A stretch of DNA of 64,000 bases from Pseudomonadota bacterium (GTDB taxonomy: Bacteria; Pseudomonadota; Alphaproteobacteria; UBA8366): assembly GCA_036339585.1 (NCBI GenBank), contig JAYZAS010000006.1, positions 1 to 64,000 on the forward strand. Direction: 5' to 3'. A program made the translations under genes and the position numbers. Of this stretch, positions 243 through 12,632 are shown piece after piece (positions within the stretch are counted from its first letter, which is position 1; every line of letters begins with the position of its first letter). The notes beneath the pieces are model-generated. The model worked only from the letters and a program-made list of their open reading frames with translations. It was not told the origin of the DNA and ran no database searches.

Positions 243-470
243 ATGGCCGAAGGAAAAAAGCCCGAACAGATGCGTGCGATTTCAATAGTTGCATCCGCAG
301 CAGCTTATTGGAGTGATATCGAACTACAGCATCCGGCTGCGGAGTATTTAGCGGCTCAGCTTTCTGAAACACGAAAGGGTTATGCGGATGTGCGTGGAAC
401 AATGGCTTTTGAGGATGAGCCGTCAAGCTTTGTGGCAGCCATATTTGAAACCCGGGATACGGGCGAATGA
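243..470 (+). CDS. AtzG/GatC-like small amidase partner (putative)
   Basis: A 75-residue acidic protein encoded directly before an amidase. The ATG at 243 is chosen because AGGAGG lies five bases upstream (232-237); a TTG at 225 would place that site inside the gene. The C-terminus carries FEDEPSSF, resembling the short C-terminal motif (acidic-EPA-x-F) of DUF4089/AtzG-type proteins, the GatC-like small subunits of AtzE-type amidases. The next small gene (1987-2172) has GDEPSHVF at the same place. The stop overlaps the amidase start by four bases (ATGA), so translation is probably coupled. A stabilising small subunit is inferred from context and the tail motif; overall similarity is weak and the protein could be something else. 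Confidence 0.65.
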   Translation: MAEGKKPEQMRAISIVASAAAYWSDIELQHPAAEYLAAQLSETRKGYADVRGTMAFEDEPSSFVAAIFETRDTGE

Positions 471-1906
471 GAGCTATGAATCCATCTAGGAGTGCTCTTT
501 TAGACCTCACACTTGTCGAGGCGGCCAACGCTATTGCTACTGGGGCGGTGACTTCTGTCGCCCTTACCGAAGCCGCCTTGGACGCTTTTGAGATCTGGAA
601 CCCATCGATCAACGCCACAATCTGGCTTGACCGGGAAGAAGCGCTTGAAAAAGCTACAGCGCTCGACGCCAAGCGGGCAGCGGGCGAAACGCTCGGGCCC
701 TTGCATGGCGTTCCCCTTGCGCATAAAGACATGTATTATCAAACCGGAAAATTATCTACCTGTGGCTCAAAGATCCGCGCAAATTTCAGACCGGATGTCA
801 CAGCAACGGTCATTGACCGCCTACACTCCGCCGGGTCAATCACTCTTGGTGGCTTGAACATGGCCGAGTTTGCGCAAAATCCGACTGGTCATAATACCCA
901 CTTTGGTGATTGCCATAATCCATGGAAGCGAGACTATTGCACTGGCGGTTCGTCCTCAGGGTCAGGTGCGGCGGTGAGCGCTCGGTGTGTTACGGCTGCC
1001 CTTGGGTCAGATACCGGCGGCTCAATCCGCCTGCCTGCAGGCATCTGTGGCGTAACCGGTATCAAAGCCACGCAGGGCCGTGTGTCACGTTACGGCGTAA
1101 TGCCGTTGTCACATTCCTGTGACAACGTGGGACCCCTAGCACGTACGGCACGAGACTGCGCACGTGTGCTCAGTGTGATAGCCGGACCAGATCCAAGAGA
1201 TCCGACAGCGCTCGCAGATCCACCGCCCGATTATGAGACCGCTCTTACCGGCGATATCAGAGGTCTGAAAGTTGGTGTGCCAACCAACTATTACCTCGAG
1301 GGTGTAAATGAGGAAGTGCAAGCGGCATTTGATGCTGCACTAGCTACAATGAAGGATCTTGGCGCGACAATCATTTCCGTCAAACTTCCATTAATGGATA
1401 CCATTTCGACTTATGGCAACATACTTTCGCGCTGTGAAAGCGTGACAATTCATAGCGATTGGCTCCGCATACGGCCACAAGACTACTCAGTGCATGTAGG
1501 GTCACGAAACTTCCCTAGCGCAGCAATCCCCGCATCTTACTATCTGGAAGCATTGAACCGTCGCGGTCCGATACTACGCACTTTTGCAAAAGAGGTTTTT
1601 AGCAAGGTTGATGTGTTTGCCAGTCCAACTATTCGAACAAAAGTTCCGACACTGGATGCAACGCGCATGGACACTGGCGAACCAGAAAACATAAAAGCCT
1701 TCAGCGCAGTATCACTAAATACACGACCTGCAAACTATCTTGGTTTACCGGCGATAAGCACGCCTTGCGGTTTTGATAGCGATGGACTACCAATAGGTCT
1801 GATGATACACGGGCGCCCGTTGGGTGAAGCACGCACTCTAAGGGTAGCTGACGCTTTTCAAAAAGCCACTGAGTGGCACAAGCGACGGCCCAAGCCAACA
1901 GTGTAA
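467..1906 (+). CDS. Amidase-signature hydrolase (AtzE/GatA-like)
   Basis: A 479-residue amidase of the Ser-cisSer-Lys family. The catalytic Lys lies in PLAHKDMY, and the glycine/serine-rich signature GGSSSGSGAA is followed by GSDTGGSIRLPAG with the nucleophile serine. Length and layout match GatA and AtzE. These enzymes hydrolyse C-N amide bonds; the substrate cannot be read from sequence. No GatB lies nearby, so a role in tRNA amidation is unlikely. The ATG at 467 overlaps the stop of the small gene upstream; an internal ATG at 476 is possible. It probably forms one unit with the second small-protein/amidase pair downstream. Confidence 0.88.
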   Translation: MRAMNPSRSALLDLTLVEAANAIATGAVTSVALTEAALDAFEIWNPSINATIWLDREEALEKATALDAKRAAGETLGPLHGVPLAHKDMYYQTGKLSTCGSKIRANFRPDVTATVIDRLHSAGSITLGGLNMAEFAQNPTGHNTHFGDCHNPWKRDYCTGGSSSGSGAAVSARCVTAALGSDTGGSIRLPAGICGVTGIKATQGRVSRYGVMPLSHSCDNVGPLARTARDCARVLSVIAGPDPRDPTALADPPPDYETALTGDIRGLKVGVPTNYYLEGVNEEVQAAFDAALATMKDLGATIISVKLPLMDTISTYGNILSRCESVTIHSDWLRIRPQDYSVHVGSRNFPSAAIPASYYLEALNRRGPILRTFAKEVFSKVDVFASPTIRTKVPTLDATRMDTGEPENIKAFSAVSLNTRPANYLGLPAISTPCGFDSDGLPIGLMIHGRPLGEARTLRVADAFQKATEWHKRRPKPTV

Positions 1907-1986
1907 ACGAATCTTTCGGCATTTGCATAAGCTCTAATAATCCTGATAATACGTATTTAAACAAAAATGCACCGGGGAGTAAGCTA

Positions 1987-2172
1987 ATGACTGATAACTG
2001 GCCCAATGTCTTGGCCCATGCAGACTTAGAAAAAACCTATGAACGATTCCCAGACGATGTGCGGGAGGCACTGGTCTCAGCACGGAAATTTACTGATCAA
2101 GTGCAGTTTGAATTGGGATACGGCGATGAGCCTTCACATGTGTTCCAAGCTAAGCTTGCCGCGAAACAATAA
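1987..2172 (+). CDS. AtzG/GatC-like small amidase partner (putative)
   Basis: A 61-residue protein between two amidase genes. The ATG at 1987 has a GGGGAG site about seven bases upstream; upstream in-frame codons run back into the preceding amidase tail and are not favoured. The helical N-terminal part (FPDDVREALVSARKF) and the C-terminal GDEPSHVFQAK resemble the small protein at 243-470 and the DUF4089/AtzG tail motif. The second amidase starts 17 bases later. The repeated order small protein then amidase supports a partner-subunit role. The family assignment is by motif only. Confidence 0.65.
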   Translation: MTDNWPNVLAHADLEKTYERFPDDVREALVSARKFTDQVQFELGYGDEPSHVFQAKLAAKQ

Positions 2173-2189
2173 TTAGGGAAGGTTTGATC

Positions 2190-3584
2190 ATGGATGAAGA
2201 TCTCTTCTTCTTAAGTGCGGCTGAAGCTGGTCGAAAAATTGCCTCTAAAGAATTATCCTCGACAGAATTGACCACAGCATTGTTGGCCCGGACCGATGCC
2301 ATAGATGGAAATCTCCACGCCTATATTCGTTTACTCCGCGATGAAGCATTGGCGTCTGCGAAGGCCGCTGATGAAGCTTTAGCAAATGGTGATATAAAAG
2401 GGCCACTGCATGGTGTGCCGGTGGCCCTGAAAGATATAATTGATTTGCAAGGCGTGCATACGACCGCACATTCCAGACTGCTGCTGGACAACATTGCCAC
2501 GGCTGATGCGTTTGTTACCAGCAAGCTAAAACATGCCGGTGCCGTGATTACTGGCAAGCTTGCAACCCATGAGTTTGCAATTGGTGGCCCAGCATTCGAC
2601 TTACCCTTTCCACCTGCGCGTAACCCCTGGAATCGAGAACATCACCCAGGCGGATCTTCATCTGGCGCTGGTGCCAGCGTGGCAGCAGGCATGGTACCTG
2701 CCGCGCTCGGAAGCGATACGGGCGGCAGTGTACGTAATCCAGCCTCCTGCTGCGGAATTGTTGGTATCAAGCCAACTTATGGACGGGTCAGCCGACGGGG
2801 AGTGATCCCCCTATCTTTTTCGCTTGATAACGTTGGTCCATTGACCCGCACCGTTGAAGATAGTGCCCTCATTTTGTCTATCATCGCAGGACATGATCCG
2901 GCTGATCCCGCGAGCGCATCGAGACCCATTGATGATTATTTTAAAGAACTCAAAGATGGAGTGAGAGGTCTAAAAATTGGCTTGATCCGGCATTTTTACA
3001 ATGAAGATATGATTGCGGATGCGGAGATGGCAGAGAGCATTGAAAGCGCCGCAAAACTACTTTCCAGCCTTGGGGCAGAGGTGAAAGAGATCCGGTTACC
3101 AAATCTAGAACAATACTCAGCATGTAGCCGCATTATTATGCTGAGTGAGGCCTACGCAATCCACCAAAAAGACCTAAAATTCAAGCCAGATAGTTATTCT
3201 GCTTCAAGTCGGCGCCGCATCTTACCGGGCGCCTTTTTTAGCGCAGCTGATTATGTCAACGCTACTCGCAAGCGCACGCAACTGATTGACGCGTTTCATG
3301 ACGCAATGACAGGCATGGATGCGGCGATTACGGTTTCTAGCCACGAAACACCTGCAAACCTCTCGGATATGCAAGAGGTTGAGCGGACTTATGGCCGACA
3401 GGCGCGCACACCGTTCAACTTAATCGGGAACCCGGCGATTGCGATACCGAGCGGTTTTCATTCAAATGGCCTCCCATTAGCACTTCAGATTGTTAGCCGA
3501 GCTTTTGATGAGGCTATGTGCTTTCGAATTGCTTGGGCGATTGAGCAAGAACTCAACTTAGGAATGAAGCGGCCGCCTGTCTAA
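2190..3584 (+). CDS. Amidase-signature hydrolase (AtzE/GatA-like)
   Basis: A 464-residue amidase, paralogous to the one at 467-1906. It has the Lys motif PVALKDII, the signature [14 protein letters not shown], and [13 protein letters not shown] with the catalytic serine. The ATG at 2190 is supported by AGGGAAGG seven to eight bases upstream; a TTG two codons earlier is less likely. The insert after the signature (HFYNEDM) and [10 protein letters not shown] resemble the third amidase at 9702-11324 more than the first. The pairing with its own small upstream gene suggests distinct two-subunit enzymes with different substrates. The exact reaction is unknown. Confidence 0.88.
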
Positions 3585-3637: not shown

Positions 3638-4786
3638 ATGAAATTCTCAAATCTTTCGCTTTTTGCGGTGGCTGTCACTTTATTTCTTTCAGGGGTTTTT
3701 ATCTCAACAGAGACCCTAGCAGACCATGGACCTGAGAGGATGTGGCAACGGCAAATTAAGCCGTATTTCAAAGCGCATGAAACAGGGATGGTAGGACCAT
3801 TTAAGGTGAACATGGAGAGTTTTGGAAGGGAACTACCGAGTACGGTAAAACAAATAAAAAAACAAAATTTCGACGAATTCTTTGACGATGAATACAATCT
3901 CGCCGCAATAGTTAGAAAAAATAACAAAGTTGTCTATGCACGATTTGACGATAATAGAAAAATCAATTCTCAAACGCCTATTCAGGGAATGTCGATGTCA
4001 AAAACAGCATTAGGTGCTGCGGTTGGTAGCCTTGTATGCGATGGGTCTATTAAATCACTTGACGATGAAATTGGTACTTATGCCGTTGGATTAAGAGAAA
4101 CAGCTTATAATAAAATATCGATACGTAATGTTTTGCAGATGAATAGTGGTGTAACCCCGCTAGGGCGAAGAGACGTAAGACTGGCCAATCAAATGGCTAT
4201 GGGAATGAAAAAATTTGCTGGGAACGCGGATGTTCTGGCGGCTGTACACCATTTCAAAGGTACATCTCGCAAACAAGGCGAACAGCATAATTATCATTCC
4301 GCAGACCCTTTTGCGCTCTCGGTACTTGTTTTTGAACTTACGGGTAAATCGGTTGCACAAATTTTTTATGAGACCGTCTTTAAACGATTTGGGCCTAATG
4401 GACAAATGCATTGGGTAGCGGACAACAAGGGCCGGACAGTTTCTCAAGCCAGGTTGGTAATGACCGCTCCTGACTGGAATTCATTTGGTCAGTTTATAAT
4501 TGATGAGGTTAAGTCTGAGAGTTGTATGGGCAGATTTTTTAAGGAAGGAATTTCCTCTTCTGTATCCACACATCGTGAAAACGTAAGATATGGTTTTCAG
4601 TTTTGGGTTTATGATGTTGATGGTGAGAGCGCAATCACCATGACTGGTCACGGTGGTTTTTTCAATATCCTTAGCGTAGAAAAAAACACTGTGATTTCTA
4701 TTTTTTCAGTAGATGAAGAATACGAAGCAGGTAATTTATTCAGTAACGGCGTTTTGGCAAAAATTGCTTCAGAGATTGTCAGATGA
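3638..4786 (+). CDS. Secreted beta-lactamase-fold serine hydrolase
   Basis: A 382-residue protein with an N-terminal signal peptide (hydrophobic residues about 5-24). The class C beta-lactamase/esterase motifs are present: SMSK near residues 119-122 (nucleophile Ser, general base Lys), a Tyr motif YHS near 219, and HGG in TGHGGFF near the C-terminus. The family includes penicillin-binding proteins, esterases and D-aminopeptidases, so the substrate is open. AGGAG lies upstream of the ATG. A second, diverged member is at 11583-12632. It is probably periplasmic, and its own transcript may end at the hairpin over the stop codon. Confidence 0.82.
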   Translation: MKFSNLSLFAVAVTLFLSGVFISTETLADHGPERMWQRQIKPYFKAHETGMVGPFKVNMESFGRELPSTVKQIKKQNFDEFFDDEYNLAAIVRKNNKVVYARFDDNRKINSQTPIQGMSMSKTALGAAVGSLVCDGSIKSLDDEIGTYAVGLRETAYNKISIRNVLQMNSGVTPLGRRDVRLANQMAMGMKKFAGNADVLAAVHHFKGTSRKQGEQHNYHSADPFALSVLVFELTGKSVAQIFYETVFKRFGPNGQMHWVADNKGRTVSQARLVMTAPDWNSFGQFIIDEVKSESCMGRFFKEGISSSVSTHRENVRYGFQFWVYDVDGESAITMTGHGGFFNILSVEKNTVISIFSVDEEYEAGNLFSNGVLAKIASEIVR

Positions 4787-6835: not shown

Positions 6836-6924
6836 TAGACACTAGGGTTCGACAGTTTGCCTGAGATTCCACCCTAACCTCCCCGGCCAGCTGTCCGTAC
6901 TACGCTCTATTGGAACTTAATTTA

Positions 6925-7620
6925 ATGAAGCGCTGTCTTGTCCCAGTTTTTGTGCTATCTCTCTTGTTCCCCTCATTTGCGAGCGGTGAAACGCTGATTT
7001 GTAGAGTTACCGGATTGACCTGCTCCCGGATTGACTCTGAGGGCCTGGTTGAACGGGAGAACCTTTTCTACTATAGGCTTTCTGAGACACCCTTTACAGG
7101 GAAGGTGGCAGGCAAAGAGCGCGGGTCAATTAAGAACGGTAAGTGGGATGGCCCCTATATTCGTTACTATAACGATGGCGGGGTGCGGGTAAAGGGAACC
7201 TATTCGAATGGTCTATATCACGGCGTTTGGCTTTGGTATTTTCAGAGCGGGCAGTTGGAGACCAAACAAACCTATGAAAGGGACAGCAGGGATGGTCCCT
7301 ATCTCAATTATTACGAAAATGGACAGTTACGTGCCAAAGGAAGTTTCAAAAGTGATAAGTATGACGGCCCTTTTGTTTGGTACTACCAAGATGGGCAACT
7401 GTGGTCTAAAGGAAACTATAAGGACGGTTTAAGATACGGTTCCTGGTTAAAGTATCACAAAAATGGACAATTACAGGAGAAGGGAAACTTTAAGGGTGGA
7501 ATAAAAGACGGCTTGTGGAGTTTCTTTTTAAAGGATGGCACAAAACGAACTGCCCCATGCAGCCGCGGCTTTGATGAGGGTTCTGGCATGTACAAAGATG
7601 GAAAAAAAATTTCCAACTAA
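6925..7620 (+). CDS. Secreted MORN-repeat protein (YwqK-like)
   Basis: A 231-residue protein with a signal peptide (MKRCLVPVFVLSLLFPSFASG) followed by six or so repeats of about 23 residues of the type DGPYLNYYENGQLRAKGSFK. This is the toxin_YwqK/MORN_2 repeat, built from beta hairpins with conserved G, Y/W and G residues. Despite the 'antitoxin' name given to some homologs, no toxin gene is adjacent, so I do not infer a toxin-antitoxin function. It is probably a periplasmic or surface repeat protein. The ATG at 6925 is preferred over a TTG at 6910; the ribosome-binding site is weak. One intramolecular Cys pair (Cys near the start of the mature part) is possible. Confidence 0.75.
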   Translation: MKRCLVPVFVLSLLFPSFASGETLICRVTGLTCSRIDSEGLVERENLFYYRLSETPFTGKVAGKERGSIKNGKWDGPYIRYYNDGGVRVKGTYSNGLYHGVWLWYFQSGQLETKQTYERDSRDGPYLNYYENGQLRAKGSFKSDKYDGPFVWYYQDGQLWSKGNYKDGLRYGSWLKYHKNGQLQEKGNFKGGIKDGLWSFFLKDGTKRTAPCSRGFDEGSGMYKDGKKISN

Positions 7621-7768
7621 CCCGTGCCGCCCATGTTAACTCACATTGCCGGCGTGCCAGAGAAATATATGGCAGCATAGGATGTCACGATCACTGTTGC
7701 CGCTCACCTACATCGTTCACGGTTGTGCCTATTTATTGAAAACATTATTCCAAATGGAGTTACCAGAA

Positions 7769-9211
7769 ATGTCAAAAGCAGCTAACTTGATTTTCTTTCT
7801 TACGGACAATCATGCGCGGTCCATGCTCGGGTGTTACGGGCATCCAACCGTAAAGACGCCTAACCTAGACAAGATCGCTGAGATGGGTGTGCGTTTTGAC
7901 AATGCCTATTGCGCTAGCCCGCTTTGCTGCCCATCGCGCGCTGCTATGGCGAGCGGTTTATATCCTCATCAGAGTGGCTATTGGGATAATTACTTTGCAT
8001 ATGATGGAGTTCAAACATCGTGGCATGGCCAGTTGCGTGACGAAGGACGTGCCGCAGTTGCGGTCGGCAAACTTCATTACCTTTCCAGTGAAATTGCCCA
8101 GGGGTTTAGCGACGAAGTCGTTACCATGCACATTCATAAGGCAACGGGGGACCTAGTTGGCTTGCTGCGGGGGACAGACGAGGGTGTTCCTGAACGAATT
8201 AGCTTTCGCAACATGTACGGTGAGTCGGGAGTTGGAGAAGCGCCGTATCAAAAGTATGACCTTGATGTCACCAAGTGTGCAATAGAGTGGTTGAACAATG
8301 AAGCTCCAAAAATTAAAGAGCCTTGGGTTCTACTTGTGTCCTACGCCAGCCCGCACCCACCGTTCACAGTTCCTGAGCGTTTCTTTGATATGTATCCACT
8401 CGATAAAGTACCTATGCCTGTACAATGGGACGAGCGCAGTCGGCCAGATCACCCTGCCCTGAATCATATACGTCGAGTAGATTGCCTTTCAGAGCCGGTC
8501 GATGAAAATTTCGTGCGCCGCACCGTGGCAGGCTACTGTGGTTTGGTATCACACATTGATGAGCAAATTGGTGAGGTTATTCGCGCAGCGCGTGAGGGGG
8601 GCATTCTAGAGACCACGCGTTTACTTTATACGAGTGATCATGGTGAAGCAGCTGGCAATCATGGTATGTTCGGAAAATCAACGTTGTATGAACACTCACT
8701 TGGCATCCCCCTAATGATGTGTGGCCCTGATATCCGGAAAGGAACAGTTGTTAATGAAATCGTATCTAATGTGGATCTGTTTGATACCATTATTGAAAGT
8801 GTCGGGTCTTCGGTAAGAGGAAGCAACAATGATCGCATGGGAGCATCTCTTTGGCCCCTTATCGATGGCGTTCCAAATCCTCGTCTAGGCTTTGCCGAAG
8901 TTCATGTGAAGTCAACTAAGGATGCAGCGTATATGTTGCGAGAGGACAATATAAAGTTGATATACCACGTTAATTCTCCATCACAAATGTTTGATCTTAA
9001 AGCTGATCCCTTTGAAACTAATGACCTAGTTAACGACCCCGCCTACTCCGATACTTTGGGTCGCTTGGAGCGCGAACTGCGGAAAATTATTGATCCAGAG
9101 GAAGTAGACACGCGCGCAAAAACTGCTCAATTAATTCACGCAGAACGTAATGGTGGCGTCGATGCCATACGCATTCAACAAAATATCACTATGACACCAC
9201 CCCCAGCATAA
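7769..9211 (+). CDS. Type I sulfatase family enzyme
   Basis: A 480-residue arylsulfatase/choline-sulfatase-like enzyme. The formylglycine motif CCPSR starts at Cys53 (C-x-P-S-R), so it needs an anaerobic or FGE maturase from elsewhere in the genome. Metal-binding segments are visible as FLTDNHARSML near the N-terminus and TSDHGEAAGNHGMFGKST in the C-terminal half. No signal peptide is seen from the chosen start, ATG 7769 with GGAG nine bases upstream, so it is probably cytoplasmic like choline sulfatases. The substrate (sulfate, or phosphonate monoester in some relatives) is not determined. The upstream reading frame continues to 7646 but lacks coding character. Confidence 0.88.
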   Translation: MSKAANLIFFLTDNHARSMLGCYGHPTVKTPNLDKIAEMGVRFDNAYCASPLCCPSRAAMASGLYPHQSGYWDNYFAYDGVQTSWHGQLRDEGRAAVAVGKLHYLSSEIAQGFSDEVVTMHIHKATGDLVGLLRGTDEGVPERISFRNMYGESGVGEAPYQKYDLDVTKCAIEWLNNEAPKIKEPWVLLVSYASPHPPFTVPERFFDMYPLDKVPMPVQWDERSRPDHPALNHIRRVDCLSEPVDENFVRRTVAGYCGLVSHIDEQIGEVIRAAREGGILETTRLLYTSDHGEAAGNHGMFGKSTLYEHSLGIPLMMCGPDIRKGTVVNEIVSNVDLFDTIIESVGSSVRGSNNDRMGASLWPLIDGVPNPRLGFAEVHVKSTKDAAYMLREDNIKLIYHVNSPSQMFDLKADPFETNDLVNDPAYSDTLGRLERELRKIIDPEEVDTRAKTAQLIHAERNGGVDAIRIQQNITMTPPPA

Positions 9212-9701: not shown

Positions 9702-11324
9702 CTACCAAGAAAATAATGAACCTGGGACGGCTTCAAATTCTAGGTCTTTCGGAATACGCTCAATCATCGCTTCAAGATGAGGCATAGCCTCTGTTAGGTT
9801 GGCTAGTTGCGGCTCGTCGAGTTGCATACCTTGAGACTCAATCCGTACTCGGTATTTCTCTAGCGCAGTTGGGTCAATCGTATCTAAACTAACGTCAGTA
9901 GTGATTGGATCGACATAACTCTCTGGATGTTTAAAAGCTGGACGTGTGTCGCGCCATTTCGTTGCACGCTCGTAGGCGTGACCTATGCGGAGAATAGTTG
10001 CTTCATCAAAGGGTTTTCCAACGATTTGCATTCCCAACGGTAGTCCCTCTGGCGCAAAGCCGTTGCACACACTTAACGCTGGTAGCTGTGCCGCATTGAA
10101 CGCACCGGTGAGCGGAGGTTTCGCAAAATTTGCCTCCGCACGCATCTGTGACTGTACAGGCGCGGGTCCATAAGTTGTAGCCGTAAGAAGCGCATCAAGT
10201 GTTTCCATCGCGCGTACAGTCTTATTTGCGAGGACCCGCTGAAACCTGAGCGCATTAGTATATTCAACTGCAGACACTAATGCTCCGGGCATAATACGAT
10301 AACGTGTCACTGCACTGTATAGTTCTGGCTTTGAGAGCAGGCTTTCGCGGTGAATGGCGAATGCCTCGCTCACAATAATAACACGCGTCACTGCTTGGTA
10401 GTCTGCTAGAGGTGGCAGGGTTACATCCACGACCGTTGCACCGAGCTCCTCTAGGGTCTGAGCAGCATCTTCCATTGCTGCCACTGTTGTATCATCGGCT
10501 GGTGTGTCCCTCTGATAGAAATGACGAACCATACCGATCCGCATACCCTTCAGATCCTCCTGTAACGCGCTTTTATAATTGGGAACCTCACGCTTCGCGG
10601 AACACGGATCAAGTGAGTCATGCCCCGCAATGATCTGCAGCATAATTGCTGAATCCTCTACCGTCCAAGTAAGAGGACCACAGGTATCCAGGGTCCAAGA
10701 TAATGGCAGGACGCCACGTTTACTTACCCGACCGTAAGTCGGCTTTAATCCGGCGACACCGCAGAACGCTGCTGGCAGACGAATAGAACCTGCCGTATCG
10801 CTGCCAAGAGCGCCCGGGACCATACCTGTTGCCACAGCGGCGCCCGAACCACTGCTGGATCCGCCAGGAAAACGGTCCAATAGCCAAGGGTTTGATGCAG
10901 GCGGCCAGGGTAAGTCGTATGCTGGACCGCCTGTGGCAAACTCATGTGTAGCAAGCTTGCCTAAAAGCACAGCCCCTGCGCCGTAGAGACGCTCGGCACA
11001 TGCCGAATCATGTACTGGAATACGGTTCTGATATAGAGCAGAGTTCCCCGTAGTAGCGATATGACGTGTGTCGTATATATCTTTAAGGGCAAAAGGTATG
11101 CCGTGCATAGGGCTGCGTGGACCGATGCGTCGGATCTCTTCCTCTGCGGCTCGAGCTTGGTCTAAAGCGAGATCGGCCGTTACCTCAAGGAAGGCATTTA
11201 CATCCGGATTATATTTTTCAATCACATTCAGACATGCTTCCGTCAACTCAACCGGTGATAGTGCACCAGATGCTATTTCACGGGCGCACTCAGCTATATT
11301 CCGGAAATGTAAAGGTTTTTTCAT
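9702..11324 (-). CDS. Amidase with a fused AtzG-like C-terminal tail
   Basis: A 540-residue amidase-signature enzyme. It has the Lys motif PFALKDIY, GGSSSGSGAAVATG, and GSDTAGSIRLPAA with the catalytic serine. The core ends near residue 465 (ATKWRDTRP), after which about 70 extra residues follow. Their end (LANLTEAMPHLEAMIERI, then LEFEAVPGSLFSW) looks like the small-subunit tail of the proteins at 243 and 1987. The ATG at 11324 is preceded by GGAGG with nine bases spacing; a TTG at 11396 is less likely. It appears to be a one-polypeptide version of the two-gene units at 243-3584. The substrate is unknown. Confidence 0.85.
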   Translation of the reverse strand: MKKPLHFRNIAECAREIASGALSPVELTEACLNVIEKYNPDVNAFLEVTADLALDQARAAEEEIRRIGPRSPMHGIPFALKDIYDTRHIATTGNSALYQNRIPVHDSACAERLYGAGAVLLGKLATHEFATGGPAYDLPWPPASNPWLLDRFPGGSSSGSGAAVATGMVPGALGSDTAGSIRLPAAFCGVAGLKPTYGRVSKRGVLPLSWTLDTCGPLTWTVEDSAIMLQIIAGHDSLDPCSAKREVPNYKSALQEDLKGMRIGMVRHFYQRDTPADDTTVAAMEDAAQTLEELGATVVDVTLPPLADYQAVTRVIIVSEAFAIHRESLLSKPELYSAVTRYRIMPGALVSAVEYTNALRFQRVLANKTVRAMETLDALLTATTYGPAPVQSQMRAEANFAKPPLTGAFNAAQLPALSVCNGFAPEGLPLGMQIVGKPFDEATILRIGHAYERATKWRDTRPAFKHPESYVDPITTDVSLDTIDPTALEKYRVRIESQGMQLDEPQLANLTEAMPHLEAMIERIPKDLEFEAVPGSLFSW

Positions 11325-11582: not shown

Positions 11583-12632
11583 TCAATTTGATGTTTTTGC
11601 TTTTAAAACCGCTCGGAGTAGTATCCCGACTTGGCCTGCTTTTACCTTCTTTTTTGTCCATTTCCAATCGCTGGTGTGAACTACCACTATGTCGAGACTA
11701 GGAGCCACAATAATGAATTGTCCTCCGTTGCCTCTCGCCGAAAATGCGTCATCACCGAGGTGGTTTTTAAAGTGGCGACGACCAGGACGCACTGTCCACC
11801 ACATTAAACCATAACCTACACTTTTACTGTTTCGTCGGCTTGTTATTGAGTGAGTTCTAGTACTCTCCCTAATCCAAGCCTCTGGTATGATTTGTTTTCC
11901 ACGCCACCGCCCTGAGCGGGCAAAAAGTAACCCAAACCTCGCCATATCGCGAGCAGTTACGCGAAATGGATAAGCCGGGTAGCGGGAAAGGTACTCTTTG
12001 TGAAAACGGCCATCTGAAATTTTAAAGTCCTGCATCCCAATAGGTGAAGCTATTTCATTGTAAAAGGCACTGAAGATATCGGTTTTGATTAGCTGATGGA
12101 AAATTGTTGCTAGCACATTAAAGTCCCAATTATTGTAAAACCAATATTCACCAGGTTTATAAGAACCTCTGTCGGGCCGCTGAATTATCTTTTTAAAGGA
12201 TGTGTATGCCGCCGGATGGTAAACACCAGACCTAGATCGAAGTAAATCGATGATGCGGGCAGATTTTTCTGTTGCAGAAAGCTTATCATCCTCGTCAATA
12301 CCCAGAGCTTCGAGGCTAGCATTTAAATCGATCTGGCCCGTTTCTGAAAAAACTCCGAACAATGAACTTAAAAAACTTTTACGCACCGAAAAAACATCGA
12401 GTTTTTCGTCTGTGTTGCCCCACGAAATAAGAAGCTTTCCGTTATAAACAACAATGAAAGCATTTGAATCCATACGTTCAAATATTCTTTTGGCCTGTTT
12501 CAACATGACACTTGAGAAACCAACAGATTCAGGTTCTTCAACCACATCCCATTTTTTGCCAGGGTAAATTTCACTCGCTGCCAAATCGCTTAATAACACC
12601 GTAAATAGAACAACAATGGCTAAACGTGACAT
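11583..12632 (-). CDS. Secreted beta-lactamase-related serine hydrolase
   Basis: A 349-residue protein with a short signal peptide (MSRLAIVVLFTVLLSDLAA). It has the serine motif SVRK at 82-85, the Tyr motif YNN near 166-168, and a C-terminal GNGGQFI in place of the usual HxG. The repeat of KSFLSSLFG and the following LL-SRSGV segment are typical of 6-aminohexanoate-dimer hydrolase (NylB)/esterase relatives of class C beta-lactamases. That similarity hints at amide or ester hydrolysis, but the substrate is not shown. It is transcribed in the same direction as the third amidase, 258 bases upstream of it. Confidence 0.82.
   Translation of the reverse strand: MSRLAIVVLFTVLLSDLAASEIYPGKKWDVVEEPESVGFSSVMLKQAKRIFERMDSNAFIVVYNGKLLISWGNTDEKLDVFSVRKSFLSSLFGVFSETGQIDLNASLEALGIDEDDKLSATEKSARIIDLLRSRSGVYHPAAYTSFKKIIQRPDRGSYKPGEYWFYNNWDFNVLATIFHQLIKTDIFSAFYNEIASPIGMQDFKISDGRFHKEYLSRYPAYPFRVTARDMARFGLLFARSGRWRGKQIIPEAWIRESTRTHSITSRRNSKSVGYGLMWWTVRPGRRHFKNHLGDDAFSARGNGGQFIIVAPSLDIVVVHTSDWKWTKKKVKAGQVGILLRAVLKAKTSN

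Follow-up and report, generated by a model that had tools for sequence, protein, structure and literature searches.

Two-subunit amidases and the analysed locus

The closest described systems pair an amidase-signature enzyme with a small helical subunit. In Pseudomonas sp. ADP, AtzE and AtzG (PDB 6c62) constitute the 1-carboxybiuret hydrolase, AtzG being a representative of DUF4089 (PF13318); AtzG is non-catalytic, AtzE is insoluble without it, and AtzEG is a heterotetramer (PMC6219798). In GatCAB, the small subunit GatC accompanies the amidase GatA, and the C-terminal part of GatC reaches GatB (PMC4027206). A GatC-GatA fusion with GatC in front, which arose by stop-codon loss, is tolerated in mistranslating mutants of Mycobacterium smegmatis (PMC7541841).

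The window, that is, the whole stretch of 64,000 nucleotides analysed here, opens contig C6 of an alphaproteobacterial genome of 2.8 Mb (G000), the close relatives of which are Rhodospirillaceae MAGs. Two consecutive small-gene/amidase pairs, small1-Am1-small2-Am2, in which both small ORFs are genuine genes, occupy the left end of the contig, and a third amidase, Am3, is encoded further in on the opposite strand:

243..470, plus strand: small1, stand-alone small subunit of 75 aa (ORF; homologues directly 5' of amidases at 9 further loci; ATGA overlap with the start of Am1)
467..1906, plus strand: Am1, tail-less amidase, split type 1 (Pfam Amidase E 2.6e-105; tree)
1987..2172, plus strand: small2, stand-alone small subunit of 61 aa with the motif GDEPSHVF (profile match to fused tails, E 1.3e-7), stopping 11 bases ahead of the Am2 ORF
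2184..3584, plus strand: Am2, tail-less amidase, split type 2 (Pfam Amidase E 2e-111; same clade as the fused amidases)
9702..11324, minus strand: Am3, amidase-signature enzyme with a probable fused small subunit, 540 aa (ORF; PF01425 match; five equal-length orthologues)
9945..11324, minus strand: Am3 amidase domain, residues 1-460, with the putative Ser-cisSer-Lys triad K81, S156, S180 (invariant in 50 aligned relatives)
9873..9944, minus strand: Am3 linker, residues 461-484 (length and sequence differ between fused homologues; residues 461-480 have a pLDDT of about 71-77)
9705..9872, minus strand: predicted AtzG/GatC-like tail of Am3, residues 485-540 (AlphaFold2, profile comparisons, fold search)

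The amidase Am3 extends beyond its catalytic domain

The Am3 ORF runs from the ATG at 11324 to the stop at 9702 and ends in LEFEAVPGSLFSW. The score of its match to PF01425 (349.5 bits against a curated cut-off of 27; E 4e-104) and the putative Lys-cisSer-Ser triad place it among the amidase-signature enzymes; K81, S156 and S180 do not vary across the alignment of 50 relatives and, by their spacing in known amidase-signature enzymes, are presumably the catalytic triad. The PF01425 match covers residues 26-445 only. The preliminary description had noted about 70 extra C-terminal residues, and the extra tail beyond the amidase domain is indeed there, albeit longer than stated, at about 78-80 residues. 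It consists of the variable linker followed by two helices (485-497 and 504-523) and the terminal motif VPGSLFSW (consensus EP[SA]xxF).

No Pfam or NCBIfam relative was found for the last ~80 residues of Am3 (best E 0.29, a chaperonin). PF13318 did not match the tail at E up to 1, nor anything in the genome and the amidase family at E up to 0.01, and Pfam gave no match of PF02686 (GatC) in Am3. Five Rhodospirillaceae MAGs encode orthologues of equal length, tail included, at 80-95% identity; thus, the tail is neither a read-through product nor an assembly error.

Several observations concern the genomic surroundings. The genome contains a seemingly large number of amidases, with 13 amidase-signature matches in 2.8 Mb, four of which cluster at C1:27986-39237 and a further three of which are on contig C21, in addition to the tailed L006 described below. 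Two proteins of the beta-lactamase fold (PF00144, serine hydrolase; window 3638-4786 and 11583-12632) are encoded one beside each amidase locus, and a MORN_2 repeat protein (6910-7620) lies directly 5' of a sulfatase (7646-9211). Near Am3 are an M20 peptidase and an oligopeptide-type ABC transporter, which would fit organic-nitrogen scavenging but prove nothing in this respect. The small1-Am1-small2-Am2 cluster (window 243-3584) was not found in the two other genomes of the genus or in the two of the neighbouring genus g2, and these four genomes have only fused forms of the Am3/Am2 clade. Possibly, the cluster was acquired in this genome or lost in its neighbours.

The fused tails are homologous to stand-alone small proteins

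A profile built solely from the tails of fused amidases (A1) was searched against 43 genomes of the order and detected not only tails in ORFs of 544-597 aa but also ORFs of 76-113 aa that stand alone, the latter at E 6e-9 to 6e-3. Those of the stand-alone ORFs that we inspected lie just 5' of tail-less amidases (L011 minus strand, L064-L067, L055). Separate searches with small2 and small1 yielded more small ORFs; nearly all matches ending in the EP motif were located immediately 5' of an amidase, whereas matches without the motif had no amidase directly downstream. The genomic position beside amidases thus confirms sequence matches of small ORFs that are weak by themselves. Matches of another profile, A2, at E about 1e-4 (L175, L179-L183, L191-L197) have no adjoining amidase, look unrelated and were set aside as chance likeness.

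Profile-profile comparison linked the fused tails to all three types of split small subunit. The match to split type 3 (S3) reached E 1.3e-9. For the small2 type (S2), from which all sequences first detected with the tail profile were taken out so that the comparison was not circular, E was 1.3e-7 with a score of 42, far above the reversed (8.5) and shuffled (maximum 18 in 40 column shuffles) controls, and this match is therefore not due to chance. The small1 type (S1) matched at E 2.9e-4 (score 25.5; shuffled maximum 13.4); judging from the profiles, the link of the tails to small1 is real but weaker than that to small2. Overall, scores against the small subunits and AtzG were 23-50, compared with at most 18 for the 40 column shuffles of each comparison and 8-12 for the reversals. 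In these alignments, the terminal EP[SA]xxF motifs of tails and small subunits are in register, which bears out the earlier by-eye matching of VPGSLF with FEDEPSSF and GDEPSHVF.

The comparison with DUF4089 that the preliminary description had proposed gave a divided answer. Taken as a whole family, the fused tails are related to a set of 15 AtzG-like proteins encoded 5' of AtzE-like amidases (AtzG/PF13318; E 5.8e-4 over 59 columns, score 23.2, shuffled maximum 14.3), the match being full-length and in register. By contrast, the six tails of the window's own clade, taken alone, showed no significant profile-profile match to AtzG (E 0.11); the same six tails matched split type 2 at E 4e-4 and type 3 at E 5e-7. 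A link to GatC at the level of sequence was dropped because the profile comparison was not significant: the fused tails scored 14.2 against 26 GatC sequences (E 0.078), below the shuffled maximum of 15.4, and every tail set gave E 0.06-0.08. A sequence search of the PDB with the tail profile returned chance matches only.

The Am3 tail is a copy of neither small2 nor small1; it forms a lineage of its own, which by profile is nearest to the third split type, found elsewhere (L011 minus strand, L064, L186 and L187).

Each amidase of the clade has a small subunit, either separate or fused

A census of the 43 genomes of the order was taken with the amidase domain alone as the query, which avoids bias towards either form. 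The scores fell into 43 matches of at least 394 bits and, after a gap, a remainder of at most 335 bits; G004:C17 is the 43rd member. A small subunit accompanies all 43 clade amidases: it is fused in 24, encoded by a separate adjacent gene in 19, and present in both forms in none. Where a small ORF does lie in the vicinity of a fused gene, it belongs to a split amidase next door (L011 minus strand; small2 in the window). Fused members also occur beyond the order, in other alphaproteobacterial orders (L161-L166, L172).

In the amidase tree, in which Am1 and Am2 have long branches, Am2 and the fused amidases make up one clade with 100% SH-aLRT support, and the fused amidases are nested within the split ones (100% SH-aLRT). 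The amidase domain of the window clade is about 52% identical to that of split type 3, versus 40-48% to other fused amidases, a closeness suggestive of an independent fusion. Nevertheless, a single origin of the fusion is not rejected (p-AU 0.85), and we therefore do not claim two origins.

The preliminary description had held that split and fused states of one enzyme architecture coexist in the window and had read this as a Rosetta-stone argument for interaction. The split/fused reading is supported by the profile homology, the gene adjacency, the 24 fused and 19 split forms making up 43 of 43, and the hairpin predicted by AlphaFold2, which has GatC and AtzG among its best PDB neighbours. As a pattern in sequences, the alternation is good evidence that the separate small protein and the amidase would bind each other and that the amidases of this clade would need a small subunit.

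A second amidase lineage in the genome shows a comparable arrangement. L006 (G000:C21:447-2096) belongs to a separate lineage and, like Am3, carries a small-subunit-like C-terminal tail (...MDDVDPIPPIYP). The lineage comprises the fused L006 and L199-L202 and the split L208 and L209, so that, as for Am3, a stand-alone version exists in two of the same genomes: G001 and G002 each have a fused and a split copy, and in the split copy the 83-aa small ORF overlaps the amidase ORF at its end. Unlike in the Am3 clade, where the small gene is upstream, the small ORF of the split form here lies downstream of the amidase. In the searches done, no sequence link between the L006-lineage tail and that of the window was detectable.

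The tail is predicted to be an AtzG/GatC-like hairpin

AlphaFold2, run on the full Am3 chain with 50 sequences, gave a model with a mean pLDDT of 93.2 and a pTM of 0.93, in which the two helices of the tail form a hairpin at a pLDDT of about 90. A PDB fold search with whole Am3 returned GatA of GatCAB first and AtzE of AtzEG next, with single-chain amidases behind. Predicted alone, the tail again folded as a hairpin (pLDDT 83.5), and its search against 350,542 PDB chains produced 38 hits, among which GatC ranked 1, 3 and 28 (3kfu_G, 3kfu_J and 4wj3_C) and AtzG (6c62_C) ranked 4. With the isolated tail as the query, Foldseek gave E-values of 2.5 and above, so that single hits are not significant and only the enrichment is: four GatC/AtzG chains among 38 hits from 350,542 are not a chance result, the hypergeometric P being about 1e-11 or less even on the assumption that the database has 40 chains of this sort. 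The tail thus has the predicted two-helix hairpin fold of AtzG-like proteins, with 6c62_C at a high rank and a weak single E-value.

A C-terminal fusion against the usual gene order

The split small genes of the clade lie upstream of their amidases and the Am3 tail is C-terminal; for this reason, simple loss of a stop codon in the small-amidase order cannot make Am3. Such a loss would place the small subunit at the N-terminus, as seen in the mutants of M. smegmatis (PMC7541841), and a C-terminal fusion would require the order amidase-small. This order is present in the window, where small2 comes after Am1. In a further observation, the 530-aa ORF L188 (G390:C5) has a small-subunit tail joined in frame to the C-terminus of an unrelated amidase, with a split-type amidase starting directly behind it. 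L188 is possibly a fusion intermediate or, alternatively, an accidental in-frame join; as an intermediate, it would represent one further step towards a C-terminal fusion beyond the Am1-small2 order of the window. The L006 lineage, too, has the order amidase-small in its split form, with the two ORFs overlapping, next to fused forms in the same genomes.

Function of the tail and alternative explanations

The profile homology, the gene adjacency, the census and the hairpin fold with its GatC and AtzG neighbours together lead us to conclude, with a probability of about 0.85, that Am3 is an amidase-signature hydrolase of the AtzEG/GatCA kind, the non-catalytic AtzG/GatC-like small subunit of which is now its C-terminal domain. 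The hairpin and the short extended EP[SA]xxF end would be reached via the variable linker of about 25 residues. Most likely, the tail holds on to the amidase body in the way that AtzG clamps AtzE, in which case it would be structural and solubility-conferring rather than catalytic; homology to AtzG makes a binding site on its own chain and a stabilising role the most likely arrangement. All clade members seen have the subunit as a separate upstream gene or as a fused tail, never as both. The substrate would be a small amide or ureido compound.

The empty single-sequence searches of Pfam and NCBIfam, the simplicity of helical hairpins as folds and the weak Foldseek E-values of the tail alone would all be expected of an unrelated C-terminal helical extension, of a sort common in single-chain amidases, with an EPxxF likeness due to chance or convergence. 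We regard this as highly improbable, given profile matches at E 1e-7 to 1e-9 to amidase-adjoining small genes, far above the reversed and shuffled controls, the 43 of 43 clade members in which split relatives have a gene in place of the tail, and the finding of small-subunit-like tails in only three of the 13 amidases that the genome encodes. That Am3 is a GatA/GatC fusion of tRNA amidotransferase metabolism seems scarcely credible, even though GatA is its best PDB match by both sequence and fold and M. smegmatis tolerates a GatC-GatA fusion (PMC7541841): a GatC and a GatA are encoded elsewhere in the genome, at C5, Am3 scores far under the NCBIfam GatA cut-off (295 versus 481 bits), GatA forms a separate clade of the tree (100%), and, because its tail is devoid of the GatB-contacting C-terminal part of GatC, Am3 would not be part of a tRNA amidotransferase.

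A homologous tail might also pack on the dimer partner by domain swapping, or might by now serve as a docking or regulatory element. AtzEG is heterotetrameric (PMC6219798), the Am3 linker is long and variable, and the change from the small-amidase gene order to an amidase-small fusion implies a different path of the chain. Against this, AlphaFold2 places the tail confidently on its own chain (pTM 0.93), a placement that is compatible with a swap too. We consider such an arrangement unlikely and prefer a tail bound to its own amidase domain. In a broader and tentative scenario, which we hold to be possible rather than probable, a radiation of alphaproteobacterial amidases has an obligate AtzG/GatC-like subunit that has switched on more than one occasion between a separate gene and a fused domain (in the window and L006 clades and possibly in L188), with fusion opposite to the operon order and the tail reaching its old site by a new path or sitting on the dimer partner.

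Comparison with known systems

The two-subunit plan of AtzEG and GatCA now appears to extend to a large set of amidases from Alphaproteobacteria. Because no Pfam or NCBIfam model recognises the small subunits and tails of this clade, annotation would leave them as orphan small proteins or as part of a plain 'amidase'. Split amidases expressed alone may come out insoluble, as AtzE does, and the fused ones would offer single chains that can go straight into assays and crystallography. Since the either/or pattern has no exception, the need for the small subunit can be tested directly.

The two-subunit plan itself is already known. The literature searched, coverage of which is incomplete, yielded neither a natural, conserved C-terminal fusion like that of Am3 nor a whole clade that has both split and fused members. 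As in AtzEG, an amidase-signature chain is combined with a non-catalytic helical partner of ~70 aa that has an EPAxxF-like motif at its end, the gene for this partner lies directly 5' of the amidase in split clade members, and the fold search returns both chains of 6c62. Unlike AtzEG, with its two chains, Am3 is a single chain; AtzE-like chains sit in another clade of the tree, and Am3 scores below the cut-offs of the AtzE family (288 versus 425.75 bits for TIGR02715, 298 versus 461 bits for NF006631).

With GatA-GatC, Am3 shares the combination of an amidase and a small helical subunit, and GatC chains are among the fold hits of the tail; the GatC gene is upstream of GatA in this genome. Unlike GatC, the tail has no further C-terminal part that could contact GatB: it ends about 10 residues past the EP motif, and the GatB-contacting part, marked by R-x-D in the last 45 residues of 26 of 26 GatC sequences, is missing. 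Finally, the M. smegmatis GatC-GatA protein resembles Am3 in holding small subunit and amidase in one chain; however, it is a selected laboratory mutant with the small part at the N-terminus, whereas the fusion in Am3 is natural, conserved and C-terminal.
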